Of a stretch of 64,000 nt of DNA, positions 16,582-47,736 are shown piece by piece. Position 1 is the stretch's first letter, and every line of letters starts with the position of its first letter. A model generated the notes under the pieces. It ran no database searches. It was given only the letters and a program-made list of their open reading frames with translations, and was not told the origin of the DNA. Made by a program: the position numbers and the translations under genes. This stretch comes from Cymbomonas tetramitiformis (lineage: Eukaryota > Chlorophyta > Pyramimonadophyceae > Pyramimonadales > Pyramimonadaceae), in NCBI GenBank assembly GCA_001247695.2, contig LGRX02015975.1, positions 36,164 to 100,163 on the forward strand. Reading direction: 5' to 3'.

Positions 16582-16601
16582 NNNNNNNNNNNNNNNNNNN
16601 N
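16582..16601. other. Assembly gap of 20 N
   Basis: Twenty N bases. The true size of the gap is unknown. The hairpin immediately to its left could be the reason the assembly broke. Confidence 0.99.
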
Positions 16602-18163: not shown

Positions 18164-18541
18164 ATGGAAACAAACATGTTGGATTGGCTGACCGGCGGCA
18201 ACTGGTTCAATATGTGCGACACGGGTTTGGAACAGAACCTTTACGACGAGTCGACGATGCAAACCCCAAGAGAGTACACTCGGTATTTCGATTCAAGGAT
18301 GGCGTCGACGCTGTCGGTACATAAGGCACAGTGGGAGGCCGAAGCGGCAGAAGCTCAAGCACGAGCTTTAAAGGACCAACGGAAGCAACTTGAGCAGGAG
18401 TTTTTGCTGAAACTTGAGCAGGAGTTTCTGCCGGACAGTGAGCTCGCAAGTTCCGCAGAAGATCCGAAAGTTGTCCCGCAAGCTTTACAAGAGTCCAGTG
18501 ACAACGATATCGCAAATGAGCAACTGGATCTTTCGACGGAG
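18164..18541 (+). CDS. Coiled-coil gene, exon 1
   Basis: 126 codons, phase 0, from METNMLDWLTGGNWF to QLDLSTE at a GT donor. It contains a Trp-rich start and a short coil (ARALKDQRKQLEQEFLLKLE), then an acidic Ser-rich part. An ATG at 18,086 is an alternative start that would add 26 residues. Confidence 0.65.
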
Positions 18542-21500
18542 GTTGCTGCCTCGAGCGCACTCACTCCACCTCAGCTATGCATATTTGACAGTATCGCCAC
18601 GGCATTACCTGAATGGATCGGTGTCGTTCACTTTCTGAGGAGCGTCTTGCCTTCTGAGAAGCATGCCGACCTCGAATCACTCCACCTTAGCTAAGCAGCT
18701 CAAATGTCGAAGGTTCATAACCTGATTGGTTCAGTGCCATTTAAAATCTTAGAAGCGTACTGCCTTCTGAGGAGCATTATACCTACCTCCCGACCCTCAC
18801 GGCATAGGGCGGTCTCTCTGGCAGCACGCATCACCCTCAGCGACTGTATGCACTTGAACGTAGGCATTCACAACTGATAGATCACTGTTCTGAACTTCGG
18901 TGAGCCGATTCAGTCCCGCTATTATTCAGAGGACCTTGGAATCACCTGAAGAATAAGCACGAACATGAGAGGCAGGTTTCGTCTTCATCCACCCGGAGCG
19001 GTATTTTGCGTCCCAATAAGGTTTCCGCTTGCGCATCCTGACGACCCCATCACTTGAGTTGCACGTGTTCATATGGGTTCGCGTGGGGATGCAAGTGCAG
19101 ATTTCGGCACAGGCGGCAGTTACTGACGCGGCGGCGAGTCAAAGTGCCTCTAGTGACACCGCCACCAACTGGGCCAAAGTCTTGGGCGCAGCGAAGACGG
19201 CCGTTCAACGTGAAAAGCATCGAGCGAGCAGGTACTTGTTGCGTCTGGTCGCTGACCAAGTCTTCATCGTGCGCGCGATGCAATTGTTGGGGATCAGGCA
19301 CCCGGCTTAAGGACAGACTGGGAAAGTCCTTGCTCCAGCGACACATGCGACACAAGCGTACACATGCGAGAAATGATGCTCGCCTTACTCTCTCAATACA
19401 TATCCTTGTCGAGGATGCCAGCTGGACACTGCCTGATGCGAATATGTTTTTGGGATATTTTTCTGCCTACTTTTCCTACTTTTCAGTTGCGTTTCTTGCG
19501 CAAGGATCCTGTTTTCCGCACCCAAAGACGAGCCCTCATTTTAAAGTTCAATACCTTTTAAAGTTTCCGCATCGACTTCCTGAACCCGCGCTTGGCTTGC
19601 ACAGGGAACCCGCGCTTGGCTTGCACAGGGAACGACTGAGTTGTGCAACCTAGGGCCCTGTGTGCCTGGAGCATGCCTTCTCGTGTCGCTCCACAAACTC
19701 TGTGCCTTGCCCTTTGCTTGGGCACAAACCAATGCACTGACCTCTTGATACCCGTGCCATACGCTGTGCTCCACGTGGATTAGCTTGCCCTTTGCTTGGG
19801 CACAAGCCAATGCACTGACCTCTTGATACCCGTGCCATACGCTGTGCTCCACGTGGATTAGCTTGCCCTTTGCTTGGGCACACGCCAACACGCCGACCTT
19901 TTGAAAGGCGGCCGTTGTGCAGCATATGTCCCTGAGAAGGCTTTTTCCGCAGAGATGATGTGTATTGAGCTGTTGAATTTGCCCATTCCGGAGTGTGCAG
20001 AGTGAGGTGGGCGCACCGCACGCAAACCCTAGAGGAGGATCGTGATCGCCTGGCCCAGGAGATGAAGGATTTCAAGAGTGAGCAGGTGAGTGGGGAGCTG
20101 CTTGCCAGCGATGTTTCAGGCATCTGCGGGTCGTGAGAAGCATGTGCTTAACCTGCGGCACTTGCTTGCGAAGAATGCGATCCAGATGGCAGCGACTGCG
20201 GGGGATATGAATCAGATAGCAGAGACTATGGCAAAGAATAAGGAAGTTCAAGCTCAGTGGAATCAGCAGGTACAGTTTTTTATCCTGGCAATACAAATTG
20301 TGCAAAGCTTCTTTTGCATTTCCACACACAATAGCTTCCAAGTGTGAGAGGGTAGGGAAGACATCGCGCGTGGACAGTAACCTCGGACGCCTTGAAGCGT
20401 ATCTACGTCTTGTGTGCCCGCAGCTCAGCTGCGAGCACCTATCGGAAATCCCAATCACTTTATACAGTGACATCAACTCAGTTCGAAGCTGAGGCTGCTC
20501 CTTAATTATGCAAACGTGAGAAGTGCAAGTTGTTTGAGGGGAGGGGAGGAAGGGGGCTCCAGACAGTGGCGCTGGCGTCTGACTTGCTCGCCAAAGAAAC
20601 ACAGTATTGGGAGGGTGAGATGCAACGGGCAATGGAGGAGCACACGAAGCAGACAGAAATTGAGGCGGCGCGGACACTAAAGGCAGCTCTTGCACAGCAA
20701 AGGCTGGAGCTAGAGGCAGCGGCCAAGGTCGCATGCCGTGCCATGCGACCTTTCACACGTGAACTTGATATGAAATCGAGACGTATCCTCGTAGCTCAGA
20801 AGACACCATCACTATACAAACCTCCATATTGTAAGGGTTTAAGTTTCGAGAAGAAACGCTGACATGCTCTGCCATTAGCGGGTCCTCGTAGCCTCTGTGG
20901 TTTGCCGCACCCGTCTAAGAACAACATTGTCTTACCATGTCGAAGGCGATCCGCGTGCAGTGAAGAAGCGCCCCCCGCAGTCTGTTATTGCATGCACTAT
21001 ATCGCATGTTGTGCCCGAGCACTGTGATGGGCATTGCAAAGCACAAATTATGAACTGGAATCACAATCACATCGCGAATCCTAAACCGCAAATTATGCTC
21101 ACAAATCACTGATCACAAAGTGAGGCGCCTCCGCACCATGCAGCACCTGGCTTTCCGGAATCCCGTTGCAGGCGCTCAATTCTCGATGCCAGGCAGCGGT
21201 GCGGCTCGGCGTGGCAGCGGTGCGGCTCGGCGTGGCAGCGGTGCGACTCGGCGTGGCAGCGGTGCGGCTCGGCGTCGCGGCGAGGCGCTCTGAGCAGTGC
21301 GAGGGCGCTCTCTGCACGCCAGCGCTCCGAAGGGCGTCCACGTGGCAAGCGAGTGACGCTCTTAGATGACTGAGTGATGCGGGTTGGGGCCCTCCAGGAG
21401 GAGGCCAAGCTGGCGGAGCCGCGCAGCAGGCCGAGGCTGCAATGGGCGGCGAAGATGGCGCTGGAGCGCGAGAAGCACCGGGTGAACAGGTGGGGCCTCA

Positions 21501-24500
21501 CGCGCGCCCACCCAGCCTCGTGGGCGGCCATGCCAGCAGAGACTCGGGAGCGGGGGCAGAGGCGAGAGCGGAGGCGGCGCGGGCGGAAGCCGCACTGAAC
21601 GGCTCTCAAGCGCGGCTGGTGAATGTGGCAATATGACACAGCAGTCAGAGGGTGGGCGGCTCGAGGCAGATGGGGCCCATGCCTTGCGCCATCAGGTAGG
21701 TGCAGGGATGATGGGGCTCAGGCGGCGAATGGGGGCTTGTGTGGGACATCAGCGTCGAATGGGGGAAACGCGTGATCATGGTGGAAGGCGAGCTGGAGGC
21801 GGAGCGCACACGGCTGGCTCAGCAGCTGGAGACACACAGTCAACAGAAAGAGGAGATGGAGGCGGAGCGGGTGCAGCTGTCACAGCAGCTGCAGGCTCAC
21901 AGTGAACAAATGCAGCAGCTTGAAGGGGAGCGGGAACGGCTGGAACAGCGGGCGGATGAGTCCAGCCAGCGTGAACAGGAGAAGGAGGCGGAGCTGGAGC
22001 AGCTGTCGCAGCAGTTACAAGCCCACGACGAACAAGTGCTCCAGCTGGAGTCGGAGCGGGCACAACTGGAACAGCGGGCGAAGGAGTCGAGTCAACGTGA
22101 GGAGGAGAAGGAGGCGGAGCGGGTGCAGCTGTCACAGCAGTTGCAGGCGTTCACGGCACAAATGCAGCAGCTGGAGTCGGAGAGCGCACAACTGGAACAG
22201 CGGGCGGGGGAGTCAAATGAGCGTGAGGAGGAGAAGGAGGCGGAGCGCATACAGCTGTCGCAACAGCTGCAGGAATACTCCGAACAAATGCGTAAACTGG
22301 AGGAGACGCAGGCGCAGCTGGCGCACCAGGCGAAGGAGTCGAGTCAGCGCGAGGAGGAGACGGAGGCGGACCGCGCACAGCTGTCACAGCAGCTGCAGGC
22401 TCACAGCGAACACGTGCAACAGCTGGAATCAGAGAGAGCAGAGCTGGAACAGCAGGCGGAGGAATCACGCCGGTGCGAGCAGGAGAAGGAGGCGGAGCGG
22501 GCGCAACTGTCACAGCAGCTTGCAGCGTACACGGAGCAAATACACGAGCTGCAGAATGAGCAGGACGGGATGTCGAGGCAGCTGGGGATATGCACGCAGC
22601 GTGAGCGGGAGATTGAAGAGGAGCGGGCGAGGCTGGAGGCGGCTTTTGCAGAGCAGGGGCTGGAGCTGGAAGCATCGATGAAGGTGTTCCATGGCCCAGT
22701 GCCGAGAGAGATGGTGGATGCTAGTTTGCAGGTTTTCAGTGTAGTGTGACGTCCTGGCAGATATGCGGACCGGGCACGCGCATGAGAGCTCGCCTCATGC
22801 GACCTGCATATGGCGTGGTCACGTGAGGTCACTGAGATCGGGCGGCAACGGCAACGCTTTGTGATGTGGATGGAGAATTGGTGAGGCATGATGATCTAGA
22901 CTGGCGCGGCAGCGTGGTGCGACCGGGCGCGGAGCAGCTGTGCGCGACCGCGGCAGCTGCGCGACCGCGTGGTGCAGCGTTCGGCCTCGGCGTGGGCAGG
23001 TTCGGGTTCGGCAGCGGTGCGGTCGCTGGCGCTGGTGTGCGGTTCTGGGCGTGGCAGCTGCAGCAGGCCCGGCGCGGCAACGGTGCGACTGGCAGCGGTG
23101 TGCCATTTCGCCGCAGCGTGCGCCCCGGCGCGGGCAGCCAGCAGTTCGGCTCGGCGTGGCAGCGGTGTGACTCGCGTGGCAGCTGTGCGATTCGGCGTGG
23201 CAGCTGGAGGCGCTGGCGGCAGCGGTGCGGTTCGGCGCGGGCAGCGGTGGCGGCTCGGCGCGGTAGCGGTGCGGCTCTCCCGATGTGGTAGCCGGTGCGT
23301 TCGGGCGTGGCAGCGGGTGTGATCTGGGCGTGGCAGCGGTGCGGCCTCGAAGGCGTGGAGCGAAGTGCCCGGCGTGGCACGGCGTGGCAGCGGTGCGGCT
23401 CGGCGTGGCAGCGGTGCGGCTCGGCGTCGCGGCGAGGCGCTCTGAGCAGTGCGAGGGCGCTCTCTGCACGCCAGCGCTCCGAAGGGCGTTCACGTGGCAA
23501 GCGAGTGGCGCTCTTAGATGACTGAGTGATGCGGGTTGGGGCCCTCCAGGAGGAGGCCAAGCTGGCGGAGCCGCGCAGCAGGCCGAGGCTGCAATGGGCG
23601 GCGAAATTGGCGCTGGAGCGCGAGAAGCACCGGGTGAACAGGTGGGGCCTCACGCGCGCCCACCCAGCCTCGTGGGTGGGCGGCCGTGCCAGCAGAGACT
23701 CGGGAGCGGGGGCAGAGGCGAGAGCAGAGGCGGCGCGGGCGGAACCCGCACTTAACGGCTCTCAAGCGCGGCTGGTGAATTTGGCAATATGACACAGCAG
23801 TCAGAGGGTGGGCGACTCGAGGCAGACGGGGCCCATGCCTTGCGCCATCAGCTAGGTGCAGGGATGATGGGGCTAAGGCGTCGAATGGGGGCTTGTGTGG
23901 GACATCAGCGTCGAATGGGGGAAACGTGTGATCATGGTGGAAGGCGAGCTGGAGGCGGAGCGCACACGGCTGGCTCAGCAGCTGGAGACACACAGTCAAC
24001 AGAAAGAGGAGATGGAGGCGGAGCGGGTGCAGCTGTCACAGCAGCTGCAGGCTCACAGTGAACAAATGCAGCAGCTTGAAGGGGAGCGGGAACGGCTGGA
24101 ACAGCGGGCGGATAAGTCCAGCCAGCGTGAACAGGAGAAGGAGGCGGAGCTGGAGCAGCTGTCGCAGCAGCTACAAGCCCACGATGAACAAGTGCTCCAG
24201 CTGGAGTCGGAGCGGGCACAACTGGAACAGCGGGCGAAGGAGTCGAGTCAACGTGAGGAGGAGAAGGAGGCGGAGCGGGTGCAGCTGTCACAGCAGTTGC
24301 AGGCGTTCACGGCACAAATGCAGCAGCTGGAGTCGGAGAGCGCACAACTGGAACAGCGGGCGGGGGAGTCAAATGAGCGTGAGGAGGAGAAGGAGGCGGA
24401 GCGCATACAGCTGTCGCAACAGCTGCAGGAATACTCCGAACAAATGCGTAAACTGGAGGAGACGCAGGCGCAGCTGGCGCACCAGGCGAAGGAGTCGAGT

Positions 24501-27500
24501 CAGCGCGAGGAGGAGACGGAGGCGGACCGCGCACAGCTGTCACAGCAGCTGCAGGCTCACAGCGAACACGTGCAACAGCTGGAATCAGAGAGAGCAGAGC
24601 TGGAACAGCAGGCGGAGGAATCACGCCGGTGCGAGCAGGAGAAGGAGGCGGAGCGGGCGCAACTGTCACAGCAGCTTGCAGCGTACACGGAGCAAATACA
24701 CGAGCTGCAGAATGAGCAGGACGGGATGTCGAGGCAGCTGGGGATATGCACGCAGCGTGAGCGGGAGATTGAAGAGGAGCGGGCGAGGCTGGAGGCGGCT
24801 TTTGCAGAGCAGGGGCTGGAGCTGGAAGCATCGATGAAGGTGCTCCCATGGCCCGCAGTGCTGAGATGTGGATGGCGCGAGCAGGGCTGTGTGCAGGGAC
24901 GGTCCTGGCAGATGTGCGGACCGGCACGTGCACAGAGCTCGCTGCCTTTGCGTGATCCCGGCATATAGTCGCGCGTGGAGGTCACTTTGAGATCGGGCGG
25001 GCACGGCAACGTTTTGTGATGTGATGGGCACTGGTAGGCATGATGGCGGTGTGACTCGGCGTGGCAGCGGTGCGACGTGGCAGCGGTGCGGCTCGGCGTG
25101 GCAGCGGTGCGACTCAGCGTGGCAGCGATGCGACTCGGCGTGGCAGCGGTGCGGCTCGGGCGTGCGGTGCGGCAGCGTAGCAGCGGTCACGGCTTAGCGT
25201 GGCAGCCAGTCTGCTCGCGTAGCCAGTCATAGCTCAGCGTGAAGCAGCGGTCGCAGCTCAGCGTAACAGCCAGTGCAACTCGGCGTCATCTTAGCCAGTG
25301 CTGACTCAGCGTGGCAGCGGTGTTACTCGGCATGCACTGGCCAGTGCGGCTCCCGAGCGTGGCAGCGGTGTGACTCAGCGTGGCTGCTTGTGCAGCTCGT
25401 GGCAGCGGTGCGGCTCGGCGTGGCAGCGGTGCGGCACGTTGTCGCGGCGAGGCGCTCTGAGCAGTGCGAGGGCGCTCTCTGCACGCCAGCGCTCCGAAGG
25501 GCGGCCACGTGGCAAGCGCGTGTCGCTCTTAGATGACTGAGTGATGCGGGTTGGGGCCCTCCAGGAGGAGGCCAAGCTGGCGGAGCCGCGCAGCAGGCCG
25601 AGGCTGCAATGGGCGGCGAAGATGGCGCTGGAGCGCGAGAAGCACCGGGTGAACAGGTGGGGCCTCACGCGCGCCCACCCAGCCTCGTGGGCGGCCATGC
25701 CAGCAGAGACTCGGGAGCGGGGGCAGAGGCGAGAGCGGAGGCGGCGCGGGCGGACGCCTTATTCAGTGACAATGGTGCGGGAGGCTCGATGGATCTAGGT
25801 ACATGCGTCTGCCTTCAGCAGATGGCTGTTCTCAGTGTTGTGCGTTGGGTGCGTGGTGGCGGCAGTGCACAATGGGATGTCGACTACCAAAAAATGGTGC
25901 AGCAGCTGCAAGACACTGAAATGTTTCTGCAGCATCAGGTTTGCTCTGTCATAAATTCCCTTAAACATCTCGCTGGTGTTCCCACAGTGCTGGATGTGCC
26001 TCGCCGCTACGCCGTTGGACTTGGAACTTGATCGAATGTTGGGGACACCTTCGATTGTCACTTAAGCCAAGTGGAGGCCGCTGAAGTACAGTTGTCTCTG
26101 GGCCTTGAGGATTCAGTCGGACAGTACCGAAAAATAGTGAGCATGGTGTCAGTCAGGATAGCCAACACTCGAGGGTTCCCATGATCAGTATGCGGCGGGA
26201 AAGCTATGTAACAGGCGACTGCGGCGATGGCCAAGGAAAGGAAAGCTCAACAGCGATGGAATGATGAGGTCTGTCTCGAGACCGATACTTCACTTCAGCT
26301 GATGATGTTTCAAACTTGAAGTAGGTATTCATACCCTGATGTGGGTATTTGAACTGTGAATAGCACTGATACCAGCCGCTAGGCCTCCATTGCAACCTTG
26401 CTGGAAGTGCATGTATCACGGGGGGTCCCAATTAAAGCATTCCCGCCCCTTCCCTTGCGGGCCTCGCCGCCAACACTCCCTGTCTCTTGCCGATGTCCCT
26501 GGGATTGCTTCCGTCCCCGCTGCTAATATCCTCATCAGGGCATCTTTTGCGAAGCCACTTATGCTGCTCATATCCTCAGCAGGGCATCTTTTGCGAAGCC
26601 ACTTATGCTGCTCATATCCTCAGCAGGGCATCTTTTGCGAAGCCACTTATGCTGCTCCAGCGGAGCTCTTCACATGCGTCTGCACCAAATCCTGCGCCAT
26701 CCCAGCGCGTGCTACGCTGAGCAGGGGGGCGGGCGAGGACCGCCTTTCAGAGGGTGAAGACAAAGGCAGAGGTGCAGGCCGCGGAGGCTGAGTACTGGGA
26801 GGACAAGATGAACCAGGCCCTTATGCAGCAGCGGCGGCAGCTCCTCGGGCTGGCGGACGAGGTGCACGGTAGCGCCCTGGGCAGGCACACACACGAGACG
26901 GAGGCGGTGCTGGAGGCGGAGAGGAAGAAGGCACAGGAGGAGTTGAGCAGGGTGCGCGCGAGGCAGAGGTGGATCTCGGCGGTGGCGTTGGTGAGGGCGT
27001 CCAAGGAGCGGCTGAATCGGCGACAAAGCAGGTGGGTGGCTGATGCGAGCTGCGATTCTGACGTGAGCAATCTTAGCACAGTCCGTGAGGGATGCTACCT
27101 ATCGTGAGGGCGTAAAGGGTGACACAGGAGACGCCGGGTGACGAGGGTTGGTTGTGGGGCTTGGTATGGATGCTTAGGATGAGGTGGGTGCAGCGCACGA
27201 ACCAGCTGGAGACGGTTCAGGGCCGGCTGGAGCAGCAGCTGGAGGACTCGGAGATGTTCCTGCAGCACCAGGTTGATACGGCTTTGCTTTGGGGCACTGT
27301 GTCTTAAAACTTAAAAGATGAATCCACGAATACTGCCAACAATAGCAACTTGGGTAAACATGATGAAATGGGACGAATGTGGTGACACAAGTTCAATGTG
27401 CTGACCGCGGGATTGCGTGTCGCACATGATGCAGTGGCTTGGGCAGTGCATGTCATACTTGATACGGTGAGAGGGGCAACGTGCTTTTAACGCAATGCGG

Positions 27501-39500: not shown

Positions 39501-42500
39501 GATCAATCGGCCAGAAATGAAACATCCTCTGTGGACCCCAGACATCTTGTTCCGATGCACCTCACTCAAAAATGTCAACATACACACCTTGACCATAAAT
39601 ATATACTCACACACGAGCTGTGGGGAGGGAGGGTGAGACGTTTCGCAGAAGGACATCACTGCTGCAGCGGACAAGTTGGAGGCGCAGCTCGCGGCTTTTG
39701 TGGGACAACTAAAGGTGAGCGGGAACGCTGCCACGTGAGAACCATGTTGACCAATGAGGTTGCCGAGCAGCCGCCAGCATGGTTGCGCATGTGGCATCCC
39801 AAGTGTCTATTGGCGTTGGGTTGCAGATCGGTGCGTGTGTGTCATGCTGCAGATGGAAAAGGCTACAGGGTGCAAAGATCGCCCAGCCCGTTGCCAGCGG
39901 GGAGATCTCTAGCAAGCTGTTTGAGAGCGTCTCAACTATGGATGTGATAGAGACACGCATGCTTGGATATGATTGGTCAGGGATGTGACACAGTCACTCG
40001 TGCATGGCTAATTTCGTTTGCTCTTCACATCTCATTGCCAACAGGCCCACTGCATAGCATTTCATTAAAAATAGCTTTCTTCTTACATGTTTTTAAGTGT
40101 CTGAGAGAAAATCTCTTTTTGGAATGTCTTCTCTAGGCTGATTCACAGCTTCACATGCTTTTTAGGCTGATGCACAGCTTCTAAGGCAAAAATGTTTAGA
40201 GTCTTCTGGGTTGGGTGGGTAGGGAAGGCAAAAGAACAGAGCTGCGGATTCCCACGGGCGGAACTCCTAAATACTGCCGTGTGTAAAGCCTTTAGATCTA
40301 ACTCAGCTGCTGATTTGATCTAACGGCTCAGGAAACTCTGATCGATCTACCGGCACAGAAACCTCTAAAATTCCGCAGGCTCCAATTTGACCATTTCTTT
40401 TGCTCTTCACATCTCATTGCCATGTAACAGAGATCATTAGGCACACTGCTCTGTGCCAGGCTGCCGCTGCTGCTGCTGCCGCCATCTCGGAGTGGTCAAC
40501 CCGAAGTACTTTCCCATGTGCTCGTCGGGAACAGCTGCCGGGTCAATGTAGGAGTGGATGGCAGAGGACAGCTGAGACCAGCCGCCCAGGAAGCAGCACT
40601 TCTCAAGCGCCGCGCCCACAGCCCTGGCACAGGTACAAGCCCCCTTGCGGGTGCTGTGGCCAGAGAAGTGTCCCCCTTCCGGAGGGACACACCCCAGCCT
40701 CCCCAATGCCAACTGCACCCAGCCATTAGCTTGCGCCGACTGGAGCTTCCCTTGCGCCCACGGCAGCCTCCAGTAGCTGCCCTGCACTTCCGAGCCCGTC
40801 ACCGGGCGCTGCCCCCAACAGGCATCCCGCACCTGCTGCCAGTGCTGCAGGAGCTGCACAAGCGCCGCCACCCCCGCTGCGGGGATGGTGAGCCTCCTTC
40901 TGAGGCGCACGTGCCCCCTGCCCTTCTCCTTGTGGAGAACCACCGAGATGTCATCACATGTGATGCTGATGTGCTCCCTGCGCATGGAGACGCCCGTCTC
41001 TGGCCGGCCGAAGGTGACGAAGGCAAACACCACGTAGGTGCACGCCCTGAGCAGCTCCGTAGCTGCCCGGCCCACCGGCTCCAGCCTCAGCCCGTGCTCA
41101 TGCACCGCCGAGACATGCCTGGCAGGCAGCCAGGTCCGCACTGTCTGCTCCTCACCCGCGGCTTCAGCCGCCTGCACCTGGAGGCGGGACATGCCCTTCA
41201 CTGCCCTGGAGATCGCCCGGCCCTTGGCAGGCCCGGGGAACCCCATGTCCTCGTGGTAGTTGTTGATGGCGGACAGGTAGGGCTGCATGTTGGACGCCTG
41301 CACCGTGCCCTTGTCCAGCATGTGAGCAATGTACAGCCTCACCGTGGCCCCCGTTGCCGGAAGCCACTGCCTGCCCTCCGCCTCACAGAACGCCATGAAG
41401 GCCCGAGCCTTTGGCCGGTAGTTGCCCACCGTCTTGTCGCCCAATGCTGCCCCCTGCATCTGCACTGCCAGCTCAGTGAGGGAGCTGTCCCCCAGCTCCC
41501 CTCTCCAGCGCTGCTGAAGCGCCGCATCCCAGCCAGCCTCCTCCTGCACCGCTTTTTGGGATTCAGAGTCGGGTTATTTGCAACAAGCGAGCGTAAACTT
41601 TCATTCTCAAAAGATATAGCAGTTCGCAGCTTGAAACGCCACGAACTTTAGCTCAATCATTATTGATTGGCCAGTCTAAGTGAAAGTTCGCTATTTAGTT
41701 AGTTATGACGTGCCACTGCCAAGTTCATAACGACTGCAGTGACACGTCTGCGATGGGCCGTGAACTGTTACATAGTGTGTCTTACCGATGGTCATTATAT
41801 GATCCAACGGCCACGATTAGTTCAGCAGATCTAGATCTAGATCTAAGGGTTTCATAGGGTTTCTTCAGGGTTCCTTCAGGGTTTGATCATCCTGACTGCT
41901 GTACAGGGCCTAGACAGTCATGCTTTACATCAAACTGATCAGCAGACACTGCAGATTCCAACACCGCTGCCGGGAGCACCTCATATCTCTCCTTGCTCAT
42001 GTCCAGGTCCTCCTTGTCACCATCCTCGTAGGTAATGTGGGTTAGGCCGTCCGACCCCGTGTCACCCACGGTGCCGGTGTACCAGGCATCATCCTGGGGC
42101 CAGTACACCTGCACCTTGAAGCCACTTGCCAGCCCCGCCTGCGGAGCCCGCCTGGCCGCCCGCCCCCCATCCTGCAGGTAATGGCTCACCGGGAGGCGGA
42201 GATGCGGAACATGATGCCGTCCCAGCTTGAGGCCCCGAGCAGCTCGGACCCTCCCAGCCGGCTGGGAGTAAAGAGGTCCCTGCTCCGGGGCAGGATCACC
42301 ACCTCGTCGGCCATGGCCTCCAGCTGCTGGAACCACATCTGCCCCGGCCAGTAGGGCGCCACCACCGTGGCGGCGCACCTCTCCTCCCGCAGCTTGTGCG
42401 CCACCTCGTCGAGGAGGGACCACGGGGGGTTGACCCAATTGACCTCTCCTAGCCAGGAAAAGGCCAAAGAGTCCACGCCCTCGCACCCCGGGTTGTGCCA

Positions 42501-45500
42501 CTGTGCGTAGTAGCGCGGCAGCTGGGCGGAGAGCTCCGAGGCGAAGCGGTCCACGGTGTGCTGGTGCCATTCCCGCTCTGCCCACTGAAACCACCTGCGG
42601 TTCAGCCGCCAGTCGTCCAGGTCCCGGTCCCGAGACAAGCGGTCGGCCCACTCGTTTGCCTCGCTTCTGATGTACCTCGCCTGGAGCTCGATGTCGTTTA
42701 AGTCCAGCAGGATCCACAGGCGCCGCATCCGCCGCATCAGCTCCGGGTTGCGCGACGTGAAGTGCGAGAGCATGGCCACCACCGCCTGGTTGTCGCAGTA
42801 GAGGCGCACCACCTTGCCGGTGAGCTCTCTCAGGAAGGATTGCACCGTTTTGTAAACGGCCTCCAACTCCAGGTGCGTAATGTGTAGATACCGTAGCTCG
42901 TCGGACCAGAATCCTCTTGCCGCGTGCTTGAGGTTCAGCACCCCGCCCCATGCGAACAGAGACGCGTCGGTGTGCACCTTCGCTCTCGTGGGGCTGCGCC
43001 AGATCTTGCGACCGTTCCACCGGCTCTGAGCTGGCAGCCTGAGCCACCACTCGATATTGCTCCACGCCTGCCGTGTGAGCTTCACCTTCGCGCCCCATTC
43101 CCGCCTCGTGGAGAGCACGAAGTGGAGGTCCCTGAGATACAATCTCGCCGGAGGGACTGCCAGGTACACAGACTGGCAGAGCCCCGTGAACGCTGCCAGC
43201 TTCCGAGCTGGGAGCCACCTCCGCTGTCGCGACGCCTCGCTGAGAAGCGCCTTGGACTGCAGGTGAATCTTCTGCAGCCTCGCCGGTGTCACGCGGAACT
43301 GTCCCGCCTTGAGGTCCACCTCGAGCCCGAGGTGCTCCACCAGCTGCGCCGGCTCCCATTGCCCCTTCTTCTCGTTGCGCGACAATTCGAGTCTCACCAA
43401 AACCCGAGATGACAACTCGCGCACCCTGAGCGCCTCGATCCTGCTGCTTAGCAGCAGCAGGAAGTCGTCCATGTAAGGGAGCACCCGCGCCCCCTGCTGA
43501 TGCTCCTCGCGGCCGCATCCTCCATCTCGTCTGCGAACTGCCCAACGTCGTCGCACCTTGCTTCCGCTTTGCAGCTTCCGCACTTCCCGCCGATCCTCCG
43601 CGGATCTCGGAGAACGCAGGCACTCCACCAGCACCTTCATGACCTTGACGAATATTCGAGGCGAGTCGTTCCAGCCGAAGGGAAGGGCGCCGCACTGGAA
43701 TAACTCCCCCCGCACATCGAACTGCATGTACTCCTGGAAGGCGGGGTCGATCCCCACGACGTGGTATCCGCCTGGAGGTCGAAGCTGATGCACCAATCGT
43801 TCGGCTTTGCGAGCCGTCGCAGCTTCTTGAGCATCTCCATCTTGCAGCGTGACTTGACGCAATGCACGTTCAACCAGCGGAAGTCCATCACTAGACGCCA
43901 CGTGTTCGTCCCCGGCTTCGGCACCAGGAACACTCGGGATACATGTCGTCGCCTCCTTGCTCGTACCCATGTGCCCGTCTTGAGACACCGCTCGGTCTCT
44001 GCGGCCATCCACTCCAGCTGCGGAGGGGTGGCGTCGCCCAACGACACTCCGTGATTGAAAGGCAGAGGCGCCTTGTCGACCTAGCGCATCTTAGCCCCTT
44101 TGCTGATCCACTGCATCACCTCTGAGTTCGCGCCAGCTGCGCGCCATGCCCCCCTTCTGCTCCGCGCCCTTTCCTGCAGGGTGGGCTCTTTCCGTTGGAC
44201 GCCCCGAGGGGCGGAAGACGTCCAACATTTCCGTGATCGGAAAGTTAGGTCTGGGCTTGGGCGCCTCGCCCAAGGCCTGACCCTTTACCTCCCTTGCTGC
44301 TGCCGCGGCCACCTTCACCTTTTCCAGCGCCACCGCCCGCTGCGCCTTTGCCTTTGCCTCCTTGATGGTCACGAAAAGTCGAAACTTTGGCGCTGGCCTT
44401 AGCGTGCGTGTTCATCACGGCCTTCGCCTTCGTGGTGTCGAACTCCTTCAACCACTTCGTGACCTTCGCTCACCAGCCCGTCGCTGCCTGCGTACACCTT
44501 CTCCTCGATGAAGGCCAACTTCGCCCGCAACGCCTCAGCTCCGCCGTGCGATGTTGCATCAGACTCCATGCTCGCTCTGAGCTGCAACATGGTGTATCTG
44601 TTGTTCAGGAGCGGAAAAACGCCCTTAAACGTGTTGTGCGCTGCGAAAACACGCTCACTCAATTCCTCCACCGTTGGGGGATCTTTTTCATCTTGACACC
44701 AGTCCAAGGTCACCTCGGACAACGCGATCGCATCGTGCATGTACGAAAGCGCAGGGGCAAGCACCAACTGCTCGTAACGCATGGACGAGTTGGTACGTTT
44801 GGAGAGGGCGTCGTAGGTCTTGTTGTTGTACAGGTCGTACATCTGCGGCATATCGGTCTCCAGTGTCGCGGGTCTCGCAGGGAACGGATTCTCTTCAACG
44901 TGTGGGACATACGGGAGTGTTTTCAATGCCTCCAACTCCACGTCTTCGCTCTGAGCGGAACCACCAGCCTGCGAAACGGCTTTCGCTGCCGTTGCCTCCG
45001 CGACTTCAACCCTCGCTGCGAGAGTCTCCATCTGCTTCATCATGAGCTGCATCATTGCGCTCTGTTGCTCCAACAGAGCTTCCATTCCGGTCTTTGCTGC
45101 CGGTTGTTCAGCTGCGCCAGAATTGTTCTCCGGCGCGCTTTGCTCACCGTCTTGACTCATTGTCGTAAGTCGTCAAGGGTTTAGACTTCCACGGTAACGT
45201 TAAAATGTGGGGTAAAATTTTGCAGTGTGCCGCACTAAGAATTTCTCCGCGAGGAAAATTTCTTGTGAAGTTCTTTTGCGAAGGCAAAAGAACAGAGCTG
45301 TGGATTCCCACGGGCGGAACTCCTAAATACTGTTGTGTGTAAAGCCTTTAGATCTAACTCAGCTGCTGATTTGATCTAACGGCTCAGGAAACTCTGATCA
45401 ATCTACCGGCACAGAAACCTCTAAAATTCCGCAGGCTCCAATTTAACCAGAATTGGCTGCCATCTTGCACCGTCATTTATATGTGTGCTCAAGGTTCGGG

Positions 45501-47736
45501 AAGGGAAGGTGCTGAGTGACCGTTCTCCGAGCGCTGAGCTGTGGGCATCCAAAACAGATGACCACTACAACGCAGCTTGAGCCATCTGTGAGCGGCGAAG
45601 ATCGGCAACGCACTGTCAGCGGAGGTGTTGGTGGAATGCGGGAGCTGTTCTCCCTGAGGTCCCAGGTGCGGGGGCCCCGTTGTCGCCTACCACCGCTCCA
45701 TGAAAAACAGCTCTCAGTGGTCTTTGGAACTCGCCTGCCACGTCGGCACAATTCAGGGCGGCTAACTGCTCTACCTGGAGCGATGCCACAAAGTCGCCCG
45801 ATGGGCTCTTAAAAAAACCATTTGTCGAATCACACCTGATATATATATATATATATATCCTCCTCCAATTCAATGGAATTTCACTTTTTGTTTAGATAGG
45901 CACTTAAATCATCCTGGTGAGCGGTGCTTTAGCGAGCACTATTTGACCTCGTGTTTGCCGTACCTTGATATAAGCATATACAATGTTGTGATCATGGTGC
46001 TACTCCACCTGAACATGTCGGATGCCGCACAGCGCAGGAAAGCCTTGCTTCCGGCAATATGCACACTGCCACACGCGGGAAGCTGTTCCCTCCTTTGGCA
46101 TGAACTTGGGCCGTGGGGCGGGGTCGGTGTGCCCGCAGATCATCGAGCTCGATGCAGAATATCAGGTGAACTTGCTCATCATACCTTTGCCAATTTTTCT
46201 TCCGGCGCTGGAGCTTGCAAACCTGCTGGTTGCGACTGGCGTCATCATCGGGCTCTGAGATTGGGCGACTCTAAGACCCTGGACCGGAATGTGAGCTGGG
46301 TTGCAGATGAGAAGTGCCCGCACCAGCTCAGAGAATCGGCGTTCATCGACCCAGGGAGACAAGATTCGGCTATGGCAAAAGGTGACCAAAATAGCAAAAT
46401 GGCAGAGGCACCTGCAGCAAACATTTTGATGGCTGCCCGAGACGCGTATCCTCTGGAGGCAGTGCGCAAGGATGGCGAGCATGCATGATCGCGCTGGAGT
46501 CGCCTACTTCCTTTCAGGGTGGTGCGGAGGGAAGTCACTGGAGTCATCGGATCATCACCTTCGGGACTCCATGGAAAAAGCCACTGGGATCACTGGGTTG
46601 TCATCTTGTTGCAACATTGGTAGCGGGCTTCCGCGCTCTGAGGCCCCAAGTTCGTGTGCATTACGGCAGTGAGGACGGAGGGCATCGCAGGGCAACCACA
46701 TCTTCTTGGGGAAGAGAGGCAGAGGGCCACCTTCCAAAACACTGCATCCGTTGGTTTAAAGGCAGGGGGGGGGAGTAGCCCTGGCGGTATTGTCATTGCT
46801 GCTGCCGAAAATACAGGCTGGAGCCACGAAGTCGACCTGACATTTCAGTGATTGCGGGTGCAGATTGAGGAGCTTAAGAGGAAGGTGACAGAGGTCGAGG
46901 AGGAAGCGTTTGGCCGCGTCAGCGCGGCACAGCAAAGGGAGCCAAAGGCGTCAGAAGCAGTTCAACCTACTGAGGGTATACTCATCCTTTGTTCCAGTAT
47001 GACTGCATGGCGCATGTGTGTGCACTGTGCGGCTTGGCGGCTGCATGTGACACGTGTTTGCACTGTGTGGCTCGATGGCTGCATGTGGCCGTGCATTGCG
47101 TGCAAGGCCTGCGCCGACTCTGACTCTCGATGGCTGCTGGCTCGGATGTCTATGACGCTCGGCATCCCATTGTTTTGCGCGCTGCCTTCGGGTGGCTCAC
47201 TCTGAGGAAAATATCCTTCCTAATGGCTGCGCACATTTTTTACTGTGACAGGGTGTCCACTTATGCCCTGCCCCTAGGAATCTTTGTTTGCTGGATCCGT
47301 TGCACTGCTGGCCTGCATGGGTTTCCCTGCTGGCCTGGATGGGTTGCACTGCTGGCCTGCATGGGTTTCCCTGCTGGCCTGCATGGGTTGCACTGCTGGC
47401 CTGCATGGGTTTCCCTGCTGGCCTGCATGCAAAGTCCTGCACGCATTGAGGGCCGCAGCAAGATTTTTTCCCATCGATGCCTCTGACTTTATTCATAATT
47501 TGTGAGGGGTAGCAGAGAACGAGTCAGAGCATGCCATTGATGAGGATATGTATCATTCTAAATCAGACACCCCTGATAAAAAAGGGCCAGTTAAACAAGT
47601 CAGTCAACGAAGAGCTTCACACAAGCTTATACAACTTAAAAGTTCTTCCGAATATATTCATGGAAATAGATCCCGACGAAAAAGTTTGGTTGCTGAATGT
47701 CTTCAGAAATTGCAGGAGGATGTTGACACAAAATAA
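18164..47736 (+). CDS. Very long modular coiled-coil protein built from tandem exon cassettes
   Basis: A chain of about 40 exons joins with agreeing phases from an ATG at 18,164 (AAAATGG context) to a TAA at 47,736, for a protein of roughly 2,400 residues. Apart from its ends the protein is almost entirely Gln/Glu/Arg/Leu-rich coiled coil. Three exon types recur. A (usually 281 nt) begins near AEYWEDKMNQAL and ends in Arg at phase 2. B (usually 94 nt, once 931 nt) begins VRWVQRTNQLE and ends MFLQHQ. C (54 nt, 18 residues) resembles ASAAATQKKKSNEQLSEE. The order A-B-C repeats about a dozen times. A YR retroelement lies in the intron between 39,714 and 46,864. No known cytoskeletal family was recognised. 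The model is inferred from the sequence, and transcript evidence is lacking. Splitting into two genes near 39-46 kb is possible. Confidence 0.75.
19101..20269 (+). CDS. Coiled-coil gene, cassette 1 (A, B, C exons)
   Basis: Exon A at 19,101-19,231 (131 nt, ends REKHRAS plus AG, phase 2), exon B at 20,001-20,085 (85 nt, VRWAHRTQTLEEDRDRLAQE) and exon C at 20,120-20,269 (150 nt). C ends KNKEVQAQWNQQ, whose last 18 residues align with the later 18-residue C exons. These are the most diverged cassette members and show the ancestral A-B-C order. Confidence 0.7.
19706..19900. repeat. 78-bp tandem repeat, about 2.5 copies
   Basis: CTTGCCCTTTGCTTGGGCAC starts at 19,706, 19,784 and 19,862. It lies in the intron between exons A and B of cassette 1. 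A 25-bp duplication (CCCGCGCTTGGCTTGCACAG) lies just upstream at about 19,580-19,630. Confidence 0.85.
20563..21489 (+). CDS. Coiled-coil gene, cassette 2, A exon split in two
   Basis: Exon 20,563-20,727 (165 nt, phase 0) contains LLAKETQYWEGEMQRAMEEH and ends LELEAAAK. Exon 21,398-21,489 (92 nt, ends phase 2) encodes EEAKLAEPRSRPRLQ and EREKHRVN. Together they correspond to one 281-nt A exon of the later cassettes, here interrupted by an extra intron. Confidence 0.7.
21190..21290. repeat. 21-bp minisatellite, short array
   Basis: Copies of GGCAGCGGTGCGGCTCGGCGT at 21-bp spacing. The same motif forms longer arrays at 22,905-23,440 and 25,040-25,440, always upstream of the 92-nt A exon. Confidence 0.85.
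21753..22683 (+). CDS. Coiled-coil gene, giant B exon with 42-residue repeats
   Basis: 931 nt (1 + 310 codons), phase 2 in and phase 0 out. After VEWGKRVIMVEGELEAERTR it runs through about six 42-residue (six-heptad) repeats of the type EKEAERVQLSQQLQAHSEQM, then ends EEERARLEAAFAEQGLELEA plus SMK. This end resembles the end of the 165-nt exon (LELEAAAK), so the exon looks like a fusion of B start, expanded heptads and A-part end. Confidence 0.75.
22905..23440. repeat. 21-bp minisatellite, degenerate array
   Basis: A long degenerate array of GGCAGCGGTGCGGCTCGGC-like units between cassettes 2 and 3. Its open frames on both strands are artefacts. Confidence 0.8.
23550..24839 (+). CDS. Coiled-coil gene, cassette 3 (near-identical duplicate)
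   Basis: Exon 23,550-23,641 (92 nt) and giant B exon 23,909-24,839 (931 nt) have exactly the lengths of those in cassette 2 and differ at only a few positions (for example RADESSQ becomes RADKSSQ). Both remain open, so the duplication is recent or homogenised. Confidence 0.75.
25040..25440. repeat. 21-bp minisatellite, degenerate array
   Basis: A third array of the GGCAGCGGTGCGGCTCGG motif, more degenerate than the others, preceding the third copy of the 92-nt exon. Confidence 0.8.
25565..26268 (+). CDS. Coiled-coil gene, cassette 4
   Basis: Exon 25,565-25,656 (92 nt, same as in cassettes 2 and 3), a short B exon at 25,836-25,938 (103 nt, WDVDYQKMVQQLQDTEMFLQ) and a C exon at 26,215-26,268 (54 nt, ATAAMAKERKAQQRWNDE). 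A further exon may end at the GTGAGC donor near 26,136. The segment shared with cassettes 2 and 3 stops near 25,760, marking the duplication boundary. Confidence 0.7.
26526..26660. repeat. 44-bp tandem repeat, 3 copies
   Basis: ATCCTCAGCAGGGCATCTTT plus TGCGAAGCCACTTATGCTGC, repeated three times in the intron before the cassette 5 A exon. Confidence 0.9.
26751..27271 (+). CDS. Coiled-coil gene, cassette 5 (A and B)
   Basis: Exon A at 26,751-27,031 (281 nt, RVKTKAEVQAAEAEYWEDKM to NRRQS plus AG) and exon B at 27,178-27,271 (94 nt, MRWVQRTNQLETVQGRLEQQ to FLQHQ). No C exon was found before the next A exon. The skipped C does not disturb the frame, because B ends and A begins in phase 0. Confidence 0.78.
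28027..28933 (+). CDS. Coiled-coil gene, cassette 6 (A, B, C)
   Basis: Exon A at 28,027-28,307 (281 nt) is the most diverged full-length A exon (TQFWENKLHQALSEERRQLL, ends KRHRQS plus AG). B lies at 28,428-28,521 (94 nt) and C at 28,880-28,933 (54 nt). A has kept exactly 281 nt despite strong divergence from cassettes 5 and 7-11, which argues for selection on the length. Confidence 0.78.
28556..28652. repeat. 39-bp minisatellite, about 2 units
   Basis: Units such as GGCGCGCGCTGGCAGCGGCT plus TGAATATGCGGATGAGAGC in the intron between B and C of cassette 6. It is the shortest member of the array family. Confidence 0.85.
29202..30696 (+). CDS. Coiled-coil gene, cassette 7 (A, B, C)
   Basis: A at 29,202-29,482 (281 nt), B at 29,622-29,715 (94 nt) and C at 30,643-30,696 (54 nt). 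A and B are almost identical to those in cassettes 8 and 9. The B-C intron is longest here because of its minisatellite. Confidence 0.78.
29753..30412. repeat. 39-bp minisatellite, about 17 units
   Basis: About 17 copies of a 39-bp unit (core GCGCGCGCTGGCGGTGGCTT, GAATATGCGGATGAG) in the cassette 7 B-C intron. The unit is a multiple of three and stays open as a 13-residue Arg/Ala/Gly repeat, but it lies between a clear donor (29,716) and acceptor (30,642), so it is treated as intronic. Confidence 0.9.
30970..32212 (+). CDS. Coiled-coil gene, cassette 8 (A, B, C)
   Basis: A at 30,970-31,250 (281 nt), B at 31,390-31,483 (94 nt) and C at 32,159-32,212 (54 nt). The only change noticed in A against cassette 7 is a conservative one (SAVALVR to SAVAVVR). 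Confidence 0.78.
31522..31930. repeat. 39-bp minisatellite, about 10 units
   Basis: Same unit as at 29,753-30,412, in the equivalent intron of cassette 8, with a different copy number. Confidence 0.9.
32486..33686 (+). CDS. Coiled-coil gene, cassette 9 (A, B, C)
   Basis: A at 32,486-32,766 (281 nt), B at 32,906-32,999 (94 nt) and C at 33,633-33,686 (54 nt), all open and nearly identical to cassettes 7 and 8. Confidence 0.78.
33042..33404. repeat. 39-bp minisatellite, about 9 units
   Basis: Same unit in the cassette 9 B-C intron. Confidence 0.9.
33969..34251 (+). pseudogene. Coiled-coil gene, cassette 10 A exon, frameshifted
   Basis: Clearly homologous to the 281-nt A exon but 283 nt long, with several single-base indels: an A lost in GAAGACAAGGCAG, an extra G in GCTGAGGTACTGGG, and changes around 34,050-34,145. 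The acceptor and the NRRQS end are kept, but the frame is broken. It may be a dead exon that is skipped (skipping A and B together keeps the frame), or the indels may be assembly errors, since the upstream intron also carries many small indels. Confidence 0.7.
34391..34894 (+). CDS. Coiled-coil gene, cassette 10 B and C exons
   Basis: B at 34,391-34,484 (94 nt) and C at 34,841-34,894 (54 nt, with NEKLLEE) are intact although the partner A exon is frameshifted. The intron after C is the type found in cassette 6, not that of cassettes 7-9. Confidence 0.72.
34525..34615. repeat. 39-bp minisatellite, about 2 units
   Basis: Short array in the cassette 10 B-C intron. Confidence 0.85.
35168..36235 (+). 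CDS. Coiled-coil gene, cassette 11 (A, B, C)
   Basis: A at 35,168-35,436 is 269 nt, an in-frame 12-nt deletion relative to the 281-nt form (the HGSALG region is reduced to QG). B lies at 35,576-35,669 (94 nt). C at 36,182-36,235 (54 nt, AKAAAAQQKKIQDVWLKE) is diverged but keeps its 18-residue length. Confidence 0.78.
35706..35930. repeat. 33-bp tandem repeat, degenerate
   Basis: GGGCCAAAGCTTGCTCTGAG plus TGATGCGGTGACA repeats about six times with drift, in the cassette 11 B-C intron where the other cassettes have the 39-bp array. A diverged relative occurs at about 27,420-27,560. Confidence 0.8.
36507..36884 (+). CDS. Coiled-coil gene, cassette 12, fused A+B exon
   Basis: 378 nt (126 codons), phase 0 in and out. 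It begins KETWKADMLSKEAQYWEAEV, runs through a long coil, and ends LSKQLEASELFLQQQ, so A and B are joined without an intron. The donor appears to be GC (CAG then GCACGT), a rare but accepted class. Reading on in frame past it to about 37,115 is the alternative. Confidence 0.65.
37458..38309 (+). CDS. Coiled-coil gene, downstream diverged exons
   Basis: Exon 37,458-37,519 (62 nt, KQSYELKIVQVESELMEEVK, phase 2 out), exon 37,677-37,755 (79 nt, SSELASRLETVTKQLEATHS, phase 2 in and 0 out) and exon 38,259-38,309 (51 nt, EHMVHLETVVSAQRSGQ). Their phases and order repeat the A-B-C pattern at much lower similarity. Confidence 0.6.
37786..37865. repeat. 17-bp tandem repeat, 5 copies
   Basis: CACAATCGCATCGCTGG repeated about five times, with one T variant, in the intron after the 79-nt exon. 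Confidence 0.9.
38850..39035 (+). CDS. Coiled-coil gene, acidic-to-basic exon
   Basis: Open frame MEGQAEKKENALPHEA to RRRSIQALKE at a GT donor; phase 0 out. The 5' boundary is uncertain (acceptor candidates near 38,844 and 38,855). It is charged, with a basic RRRS motif near its end. Confidence 0.5.
39649..39714 (+). CDS. Coiled-coil gene, 66-nt exon
   Basis: 22 codons (KDITAAADKLEAQLAAFVGQ plus LK) between TTTCGCAG and GTGAGC, phase 0 on both sides. It is the last exon before the retroelement-bearing intron. Confidence 0.65.
40224..40393. repeat. YR element repeat A2
   Basis: This segment of about 170 bp begins GAAGGCAAAAGAACAGAGCT and ends near GCAGGCTCCAATTT. It is repeated in the same orientation at 45,280-45,448 with about five substitutions. 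Confidence 0.9.
40397..40423. repeat. YR element repeat B1
   Basis: TTTGCTCTTCACATCTCATT plus GCCA recurs at about 40,017-40,042 (B2). B1 lies between the recombinase stop and A2, and B2 lies at the outer end, as expected for split direct repeats. Confidence 0.75.
40437..41549 (-). CDS. Tyrosine recombinase of the YR retroelement
   Basis: 370 residues. The N-terminal half has the phage-integrase SAM-like part (VGNYRPKARAFMAFCEAEGR, LYIAHML, YLSAINNYHEDMGFP). The catalytic half shows the first Arg (VTFGRPETGVSMRREHI), the H-x-x-R box (SGHSTRKGA), a following GGW and the nucleophile Tyr (SAIHSYID). It would circularise and integrate the cDNA. All catalytic positions that can be judged are present and the frame is open throughout, so the gene looks intact. 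A 377-codon antisense ORF over the same DNA is a shadow. Confidence 0.88.
   Translation of the reverse strand: MQEEAGWDAALQQRWRGELGDSSLTELAVQMQGAALGDKTVGNYRPKARAFMAFCEAEGRQWLPATGATVRLYIAHMLDKGTVQASNMQPYLSAINNYHEDMGFPGPAKGRAISRAVKGMSRLQVQAAEAAGEEQTVRTWLPARHVSAVHEHGLRLEPVGRAATELLRACTYVVFAFVTFGRPETGVSMRREHISITCDDISVVLHKEKGRGHVRLRRRLTIPAAGVAALVQLLQHWQQVRDACWGQRPVTGSEVQGSYWRLPWAQGKLQSAQANGWVQLALGRLGCVPPEGGHFSGHSTRKGACTCARAVGAALEKCCFLGGWSQLSSAIHSYIDPAAVPDEHMGKYFGLTTPRWRQQQQRQPGTEQCA
41887..42180 (-). CDS. Tudor/Agenet-like domain segment of the YR retroelement
   Basis: The frame encodes GFKVQVYWPQDDAWYTGTVG, then LTHITYEDGDKEDLDMSKER and YEVLP. The pattern VxVYWPxDxxWYxGxV...YxDGDxExLxL is that of small Tudor-like (PTM/Agenet-type) domains that bind modified histone tails in green organisms. 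It lies directly after the RT-RNase H ORF but in another frame, so it needs a frameshift or reflects a small indel. A chromatin-reading domain would suit target-site choice; that is inference. Confidence 0.65.
   Translation of the reverse strand, partial: YLQDGGRAARRAPQAGLASGFKVQVYWPQDDAWYTGTVGDTGSDGLTHITYEDGDKEDLDMSKERYEVLPAAVLESAVSADQFDVKHDCLGPVQQSG
42186..44047 (-). pseudogene. Reverse transcriptase-RNase H of the YR retroelement, one frameshift
   Basis: The N-terminal RT part lies in one frame (44,047 to about 43,790: VSRVFLVPKPGTNTWRLVMD, CISFDLQ) and continues in another (from about 43,790: GYHVVGIDPAFQEYMQF, GALPFGWNDSPRIF, the catalytic YMDDFLLLL). RNase H follows (VHTDASLFAWGGVL, HLELEAVY, LYCDNQAVV), then a conserved C-terminal module (DRFASELSAQLPRYYAQWHN, VNPPWSLLDEVAHKL, VVAPYWPGQMWFQQLE) common after RNase H in YR retroelements. 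The single shift near 43,780-43,790 breaks the ORF; everything after it is open for about 530 codons. Confidence 0.85.
44091..45160 (-). CDS. Gag-like ORF of the YR retroelement, frameshifted near its 3' end
   Basis: From ATG at 45,160 (MSQDGEQSAPENNSG) the frame is open for 253 residues, with a coiled-coil-like stretch (LMMKQMETLAARVEVAEATA) and a helical core (TYDALSKRTNSSMRYEQLVL). Homology then seems to move to another frame (KEFDTTKAKAVMNTHAKASA, a Gly/Lys-rich tail) at about 44,450, and a Pro-rich segment continues to about 44,091. No zinc knuckle was seen. Assignment as Gag rests on its position and composition. Confidence 0.6.
45280..45448. repeat. YR element repeat A1
   Basis: Partner of 40,224-40,393, lying 5' of the Gag-like ORF on the minus strand. 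Confidence 0.9.
45450..46860 (+). other. Intron of the coiled-coil gene, right of the retroelement
   Basis: Contains a TATATA run at about 45,839-45,859 and short open stretches. A possible small exon lies near 46,370-46,425 (ATGGCAAAAGGTGACCAAAA onward), but its phases were not resolved. Otherwise no gene was recognised. Confidence 0.35.
46864..46975 (+). CDS. Coiled-coil gene, penultimate exon
   Basis: 112 nt, phase 0 in and 1 out, encoding IEELKRKVTEVEEEAFGRVS and AAQQREPKASEAVQPTE before a GTATAC donor. Composition and phase fit the coiled-coil gene. Confidence 0.55.
47290..47430. repeat. 21-bp tandem repeat, about 6 copies
   Basis: GCTGGCCTGCATGGGTTTCCC alternates with GCTGGCCTGCATGGGTTGCAC, a 21-bp unit with 42-bp higher-order order. 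It lies in the last intron. Confidence 0.9.
47516..47736 (+). CDS. Coiled-coil gene, C-terminal exon
   Basis: The exon begins after GTAGCAG with two bases that complete a codon from the phase-1 donor at 46,975. It encodes an acidic start (NESEHAIDEDMYHSKSDTPD), a basic middle (KKGPVKQVSQRRASHKLIQL, NRSRRKSLVAE) and stops at TAA 47,734-47,736. The RRKS and RRAS words look like basophilic kinase sites. A continuous 3' UTR-like AT-rich stretch follows. Confidence 0.6.

Follow-up and report, generated by a model that had tools for sequence, protein, structure and literature searches.

The window, the whole 64,000-nucleotide stretch of Cymbomonas tetramitiformis DNA analysed here (GC content 55.3%), carries on its plus strand a chain of 41 exons running from an ATG at 18,164 to a TAA at 47,736, with introns of up to 7 kb. 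The chain was hand-built from anchors and checked by script; with cassette 10 omitted, it reads as a single open frame of 2,286 residues. A second in-frame ATG lies upstream at 18,086. All 40 acceptors are AG, with GT at 39 of 40 donors and GC at one (after 36,884), a tally that is weak evidence by itself because the exon borders were picked to fit.

Several other features share the window. On the plus strand, a 990-residue open frame at 50,619-53,591 matches prolyl oligopeptidase family S9 in Pfam (E=4e-25). Pieces on the minus strand at 642-2,835 weakly match a DEAD-type helicase, below the Pfam cut-off, and we assume that they may be exons of a RecG-like gene, a label taken from an MSATPIPRT motif. 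A tandem array at 6,582-7,511, with a 201-bp unit in 4.6 copies, is largely open on the minus strand, and its frame at 6,731-7,516 has no Pfam match. A run of 20 N at 16,582-16,601 forms a gap upstream of the gene.

Exon chain and cassette structure

The repeating unit is a cassette of three exons, A, B and C, and the exon chain together with block comparison identifies the tandem block as several exons with their introns included. Exon phases run from 0 to 2 in A, from 2 to 0 in B and from 0 to 0 in C wherever these exons are present, the A exon of cassette 10 being the exception. The cassette is thus frame-neutral: with that one exon excepted, the C and A borders are both in phase 0 wherever they occur, so any whole number of cassettes keeps the reading frame. 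The sequence-only reading of this DNA had described a series of about a dozen such cassettes, and the series is there, numbering 13 in our count with cassette 13 degenerate. Its statement that exon lengths of 281, 94 and 54 nt are kept in every copy needs correction. C does measure 54 nt in all 10 copies found, but cassettes 2 and 3 have no C, in cassette 13 it is replaced, and the lengths of A and B vary. A measures 281 nt in cassettes 5-9, 269 nt in 11 and 62 nt in 13, is interrupted in cassettes 1-4 by a phase-0 intron that divides it into A_N and A_C, and is fused to B in 12; B measures 94 nt in cassettes 5-11, 85 nt in 1, 103 nt in 4 and 79 nt in 13.

All exons lie on the plus strand. Cassette 1 opens with the first coding exon, E01 (18,164-18,541), which contains an A_N-like WEAE stretch and an A-like match at 18,278-18,394 (E=8e-5), and continues with A_C (E02, 19,113-19,231, 119 nt), B (E03, 20,001-20,085, 85 nt) and C (E04, 20,216-20,269, 54 nt). 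Cassette 2 comprises A_N (E05, 20,563-20,727), A_C (E06, 21,398-21,489) and the 931-nt exon E07 (21,753-22,683), while cassette 3 holds E08 (23,550-23,641), an A_C that duplicates E06, and E09 (23,909-24,839), a 931-nt duplicate of E07. These two long exons begin B-like, continue with heptad units of 42 residues, about 6.5 of them, and finish A_N-like, which accounts for the absence of C in cassettes 2 and 3. Cassette 4 has A_C (E10, 25,565-25,656), a 103-nt B (E11, 25,836-25,938) and C (E12, 26,215-26,268).

From cassette 5 onward, A is a single exon. Cassette 5 consists of A (E13, 26,751-27,031, 281 nt), B (E14, 27,178-27,271, 94 nt) and C (E15, 27,720-27,773), and cassette 6 of a diverged 281-nt A (E16, 28,027-28,307), B (E17, 28,428-28,521) and C (E18, 28,880-28,933). 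Cassettes 7, 8 and 9 follow as E19-E21 (29,202-30,696; A 29,202-29,482, B 29,622-29,715, C 30,643-30,696), E22-E24 (30,970-32,212; A 30,970-31,250, B 31,390-31,483, C 32,159-32,212) and E25-E27 (32,486-33,686; A 32,486-32,766, B 32,906-32,999, C 33,633-33,686). Cassette 10 (E28-E30, 33,969-34,894) contains B at 34,391-34,484 and C at 34,841-34,894 behind an A exon at 33,969-34,251, and cassette 11 (E31-E33, 35,168-36,235) a 269-nt A at 35,168-35,436, B at 35,576-35,669 and C at 36,182-36,235. In cassette 12, A and B are fused in E34 (36,507-36,884), which ends at the GC donor, and C is E34b (37,290-37,343), preferred for its likeness to other C exons over a dropped candidate of 51 nt at 37,084-37,134. 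The degenerate A and B of cassette 13 are E35 (37,458-37,519, 62 nt) and E36 (37,677-37,755, 79 nt). Beyond them lie E37 (38,808-39,035, 228 nt), E38 (39,649-39,714, 66 nt), E39 (46,864-46,975, 112 nt) and the last exon, E40 (47,513-47,736), which carries a conserved C-terminal motif and ends in the TAA at 47,734-47,736.

The phases had been described as preserved without a clash, which is correct everywhere except in the A exon of cassette 10; as assembled, this exon is 283 nt long, frameshifted and interrupted by stops. Aligned with cassette 9, cassette 10 differs mainly by indels, packed into a patch at about 33,690-34,150. The patch spans parts of both intron and exon, and the sequence on either side of it is nearly identical in the two cassettes. 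It looks like an unpolished stretch of the assembly, and may instead be real decay.

The intron between E38 and E39 harbors a retroelement on the minus strand (40,224-45,449), separate from the gene product and bounded by 170-bp direct repeats (40,224-40,393 and 45,280-45,449) that are 97% identical. It contains a tyrosine-recombinase-like frame (40,437-41,573), a frame resembling reverse transcriptase, RNase H and Dam (42,186-44,090), and a third frame (44,399-45,172). The match to RNase H exceeds its Pfam cut-off, and those to reverse transcriptase, to Dam and to the N-terminal domain of phage integrase fall short of theirs; we take this domain combination to be that of a DIRS-like element. 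Part of the reverse-transcriptase-like sequence seems to run on in another frame (43,637-44,080), and the element may be broken. Downstream of the gene, TGTAA, the green-algal poly(A) signal, occurs at 47,816 and 47,859, that is 80 and 123 nt past the stop, with a window-wide density of 0.5 per kb.

A paralogue in the same genome and chance expectations

An inexact match led to a paralogue elsewhere in the genome, on the minus strand of contig C219; the start of this gene seems to lie past the end of the contig. Besides A-type exons, it contains three 94-nt B exons and three C exons, with lengths of 54, 42 and 54 nt, and its phases are as in the window gene. The order of elements is also the same, with cassettes, exons of 62, 79 and 60 nt and a last exon arranged inside about 10 kb. 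In the last exons of the two genes, 17 of 33 residues are identical (E=2e-10, for this single comparison). At the least, E40 is therefore part of the gene, even though the retroelement separates it from E38. The paralogue's first TGTAA is found about 250 nt past its stop.

The paralogue provides a reference for ranking all comparable open segments in the window. Open segments of 54 nt between AG and GT number 289 (177 on the plus strand and 112 on the minus strand). When these are scored against the paralogue's two 54-nt C exons, ranks 1-9 are occupied by nine of the ten model C exons, including E34b at rank 1, the C exon of cassette 11 at rank 2, E12 at rank 5 and E04 at rank 8, and the tenth and weakest, E15 at 27,720, ranks 18th. 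Among 163 open AG-to-GT segments of 94 nt, ranks 1-7 fall to the seven 94-nt B exons, with scores of 72-73 and a next best score of 1.

Because the paralogue C exons had been identified visually and E34b selected for its likeness to them, the ranking was also run in reverse, on both strands of 10,200 bases of C219. The paralogue C exons take ranks 1-2 of 52 (scores of 39 and 24, against 16), with scores of 38 and 24 when E34b is removed from the reference, and the paralogue B exons take ranks 1-3 of 23 (69-72 against -14). The AG and GT borders in the model, together with these top ranks, establish the repeated A-B-C exons that had been read from the sequence. The chain from ATG to TAA was recovered likewise, with a final exon homologous to that of the paralogue.

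The exons beyond the cassettes were compared in the same manner. The 62-nt paralogue exon equals E35 in length and phase and ranks first of 56 open segments (34 against 11; shuffle z=3.7), and the 79-nt exon equals E36 in length and phase and ranks first of 38 (51 against 7; z=6.7). The 60-nt exon homologous to E38 comes first of 530 start points, where three longer versions of the same stretch tie with it (z=5.8). A 105-nt paralogue exon is a possible counterpart of E39, an assignment that is weak, with a score of 37 compared with 35 for an unrelated helical stretch (z=3.6). No clear counterpart of E02, E37 or the 5' end was found at the C219 locus.

Cassette copying and divergence

The cassettes form a mosaic of older and more recent blocks. 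Cassettes 7-9 are nearly identical, with 0-1 changes in A, 0-2 in the A-B intron and none in B. Cassette 5 has its A, A-B intron and B in common with the recent copies, along with a C exon and flanking introns of its own, whereas in cassette 6 A is old and everything from B through C, the intron between them included, is recent. Cassettes 6 and 10 have similar C-A introns (4 of 268 positions differ), which are unlike those of cassettes 7-9. In a small tree, the C exons of cassettes 6-10 fall together (support 0.94), and the B-exon tree groups cassettes 5-11 (support 0.96), also pulling in the diverged cassette 4. The mosaic fits unequal exchange in introns combined with gene conversion, a mechanism we infer from the arrangement of the blocks.

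The B-C introns of cassettes 6-10 range from 356 to 927 nt and contain 1-14 minisatellite motifs, with lengths of 927, 675, 633 and 356 nt and motif counts of 14, 7, 8 and 1 in cassettes 7, 8, 9 and 10, respectively. In cassettes 7-9 the 39-bp minisatellite occupies 29,755-30,410, 31,523-31,930 and 33,041-33,402. The unit length is divisible by three, and long stretches of the minisatellite are open in frame.

When pooled, exons of duplicated blocks differ less than the introns beside them. E07 and E09 differ at 4 of 931 positions, compared with 10 of 263 in the preceding introns (p=1e-4); E06 and E08 differ at 2 of 92, giving 6 of 1023 when pooled with E07 and E09 (p=3e-4). The introns following E07 and E09 differ at 220 of 716 positions, with 17 gap events. 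Between cassettes 5 and 7, the A exons differ at 3 of 281 positions, against 14 of 139 in the intron that follows (p=3e-5), with 5 of 94 in B and 8 of 375 in A and B pooled (p=3e-4), and the C exons differ at 29 of 54. Taken alone, the E06/E08 pair (2/92) and the B exons of cassettes 5 and 7 (5/94) are not distinct from introns. In cassettes 7-9, exon and A-B intron divergence are about equal and both low, and are uninformative on constraint.

Changes fall most often on the third codon position in diverged pairs of B, C and A alike. Counts for the three positions are 120, 88 and 139 in B (10 diverged pairs of five exons, excluding near-identical copies and the 85- and 103-nt exons), 262, 226 and 305 in C (28 diverged pairs of eight exons), and 32, 31 and 50 in A of cassettes 6 and 7; the pairs are not independent, which makes the p-values of such counts too small. 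Low exon divergence could also stem from gene conversion rather than selection, and conversion would mimic part of the contrast between exons and introns.

Predicted protein, relatives and interpretation

The predicted protein combines two kinds of helical sequence. E07 shows a hydrophobic period of 3.5 residues with a heptad z of 11.2, whereas the A-B-C cassettes (1,063 residues, one proline) give a heptad z of -1.1, and four single cassettes, scored at 3.5 with the residue set LIVMFWY, give -0.3 to 1.1. The description of the gene as coiled-coil is accordingly apt for the two 931-nt exons and inapt for the cassettes. Across the cassette region, z reaches 3.9-4.9 at periods near 3.67-3.75, and 7.0 and 4.4 at 3.3-3.4, values inflated by near-identical copies; in the four single cassettes, z at 3.667 is only 0.5 to 3.2, weak and variable.

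AlphaFold predicts E34, which comprises A and B fused and no C, as one helix over residues 2-125 (pLDDT 96.4), with the caveat that it can be over-confident on isolated charged helices and that a monomer is uninformative on oligomers. For the last exon, short helices are predicted at residues 31-42, 45-49 and 52-72, with confidence mostly limited to the stretch that has a counterpart in the paralogue, and a fold search of this C-terminal model against the PDB returned three matches with a best E of 8, that is, no fold match. A complete cassette measures 143 residues, or 13 x 11, which at a rise of 0.15 nm per residue gives a helix about 21 nm long; the multiple would suit a hendecad rod, as a single number and not a test.

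The searches for relatives were conducted at several levels. In a protein collection, one module as query yielded 204 candidates, none at E<=0.001; a shortened spliced protein gave none at E<=0.01 among the best 7,999 candidates by shared words; and a six-row module alignment gave none at E<=0.1 among the best 8,000. The PDB sequences contained no relative, two matches at E=0.09 and 0.95 being taken as chance, and Pfam gave only below-cut-off matches to unrelated families for the cassettes and C-terminus, the best being PigL_N (E=4e-4). None of 34 pattern matches in viral contigs and none of 72 in prokaryote contigs was confirmed, and the 20 kb just upstream of the window has no match to seven exon peptides. 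A literature survey gave no account of such a gene among the titles and abstract starts that it listed. The module had been proposed to lie outside known families, and this agrees with the lack of a match in Pfam, the PDB sequences, the best candidates of the protein collection and the viral and prokaryote contigs; the protein family appears undescribed in the sense that it was not found in the libraries searched. A further locus of the genome, C8822, contains an exon that is present three times in tandem and resembles B and C fused: it carries LDSSEMFLQQQ and, behind it, a C-like tail of 18 residues. The match is short, and C8822 is placed in the family only tentatively. The E07 region exceeds the curated cut-off of Pfam DUF4200 (PF13863) at 37.6 against 29.7 bits, through three partial stretches of low-complexity heptads.

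Taken together, these observations favor one giant nuclear gene that has grown by repeated copying of a frame-neutral cassette and encodes a cytoskeletal rod protein of an apparently undescribed family, a reading to which we assign a probability of about 0.7. That this is one giant gene growing by tandem duplication had been proposed from the sequence alone, and the analysis supports it; the accompanying suggestion of an expandable filament-type protein is conjectural. The gene would be transcribed as one mRNA into a product of about 2,430 residues (2,286 plus cassette 10), expected to form a very long, almost proline-free helical rod of 13 A-B-C modules, with the two long heptad coiled-coil exons near its front and a small conserved helical domain at its C-terminus. 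Unequal exchange in introns, several of which carry minisatellites, would add or remove whole cassettes with the frame unchanged, while gene conversion would spread sequence between cassette copies. The protein would most likely serve as a cytoskeletal rod or scaffold with a length that follows cassette number, a role to which no homologue points.

An alternative is that the array was once coding and is now a pseudogene. The indels and stops in the A exon of cassette 10, the 5-kb retroelement in the E38-E39 intron, the expanding minisatellites and the GC donor at E34 are all compatible with such decay. The errors are nevertheless confined to the one patch at about 33,690-34,150, spread over intron and exon between near-identical flanks as if unpolished, all other model exons are open and in phase, and pooled exons differ less than adjoining introns, making a decaying gene unlikely. 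The same patch, lying inside the array, together with the near identity of cassettes 7-9 in exons and A-B introns, also raises the question of whether the assembly has multiplied or mis-joined fewer real cassettes; the distinct B-C intron lengths and minisatellite motif counts of cassettes 7-10 render this improbable.

It is similarly doubtful that several adjacent shorter genes with a common duplicated module occupy the region, a reading encouraged by introns of up to 7 kb, by E37 and E38, which are unlike the cassette, and by a chain traced in genomic sequence. Phase continuity along the chain argues otherwise, as does the paralogue, in which the cassettes, the three short exons (62, 79 and 60 nt) and the last exon follow one another in the same sequence over some 10 kb. 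A non-coding repeat array, with open frames as a by-product of GC-rich sequence, is close to refuted: long open frames exist on the minus strand too, and open 54-nt segments between AG and GT arise by chance on both strands, but the model exons are top-ranked by paralogue scoring in both directions.

Returning to the single giant gene, a bolder extension treats its product as a molecular ruler, in which a straight rod of hendecad type would grow by about 21 nm with each 143-residue cassette. Unequal exchange would alter the number of cassettes, and that number would set the length or striation of a cell structure differing between strains. We consider this unlikely.

Several known systems offer points of comparison. 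In spectrin-type rods, helical modules that span about 100-150 residues and have conserved tryptophans are repeated in tandem, and the cassettes resemble them in these respects. A spectrin-type three-helix bundle was rejected, as E34 (A and B) is predicted as one straight helix and no Pfam spectrin match was obtained. Rootletin and SF-assemblin, of the ciliary rootlet and striated fibre, are filament-forming proteins of flagellates, long and either helical or coiled-coil. The window cassettes differ from these in having no heptads; neither the cassettes nor the C-terminus matches them in Pfam or the PDB sequences, and E07 matches only DUF4200 in Pfam, a match not extending to the cassettes or C-terminus.

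The closest parallel in mode of growth comes from large animal genes. The repeated blocks of nebulin, titin and LPA keep the reading frame. The human nebulin triplicate region, titin duplication region and LPA kringle IV-2 are tandem multi-exon blocks within one large gene, with varying copy number (PMC9109913, PMC9142044, PMC6314250). The window gene shares with them the tandem multi-exon blocks inside one large gene; the proteins are unrelated, and the window unit consists of three short exons with 429 nt of coding sequence in an algal-type genome, known from one assembly. The mode of growth is thus already known, whereas the protein family appears new. Outside animals, the locus is a clear example of a giant gene that gains length in units of entire multi-exon cassettes; old copies stand next to recent ones, and a diverged paralogue serves as control. 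Should its product be a cytoskeletal rod, the cytoskeleton of early-branching green algae, about which little is known, would gain a protein family not described before.
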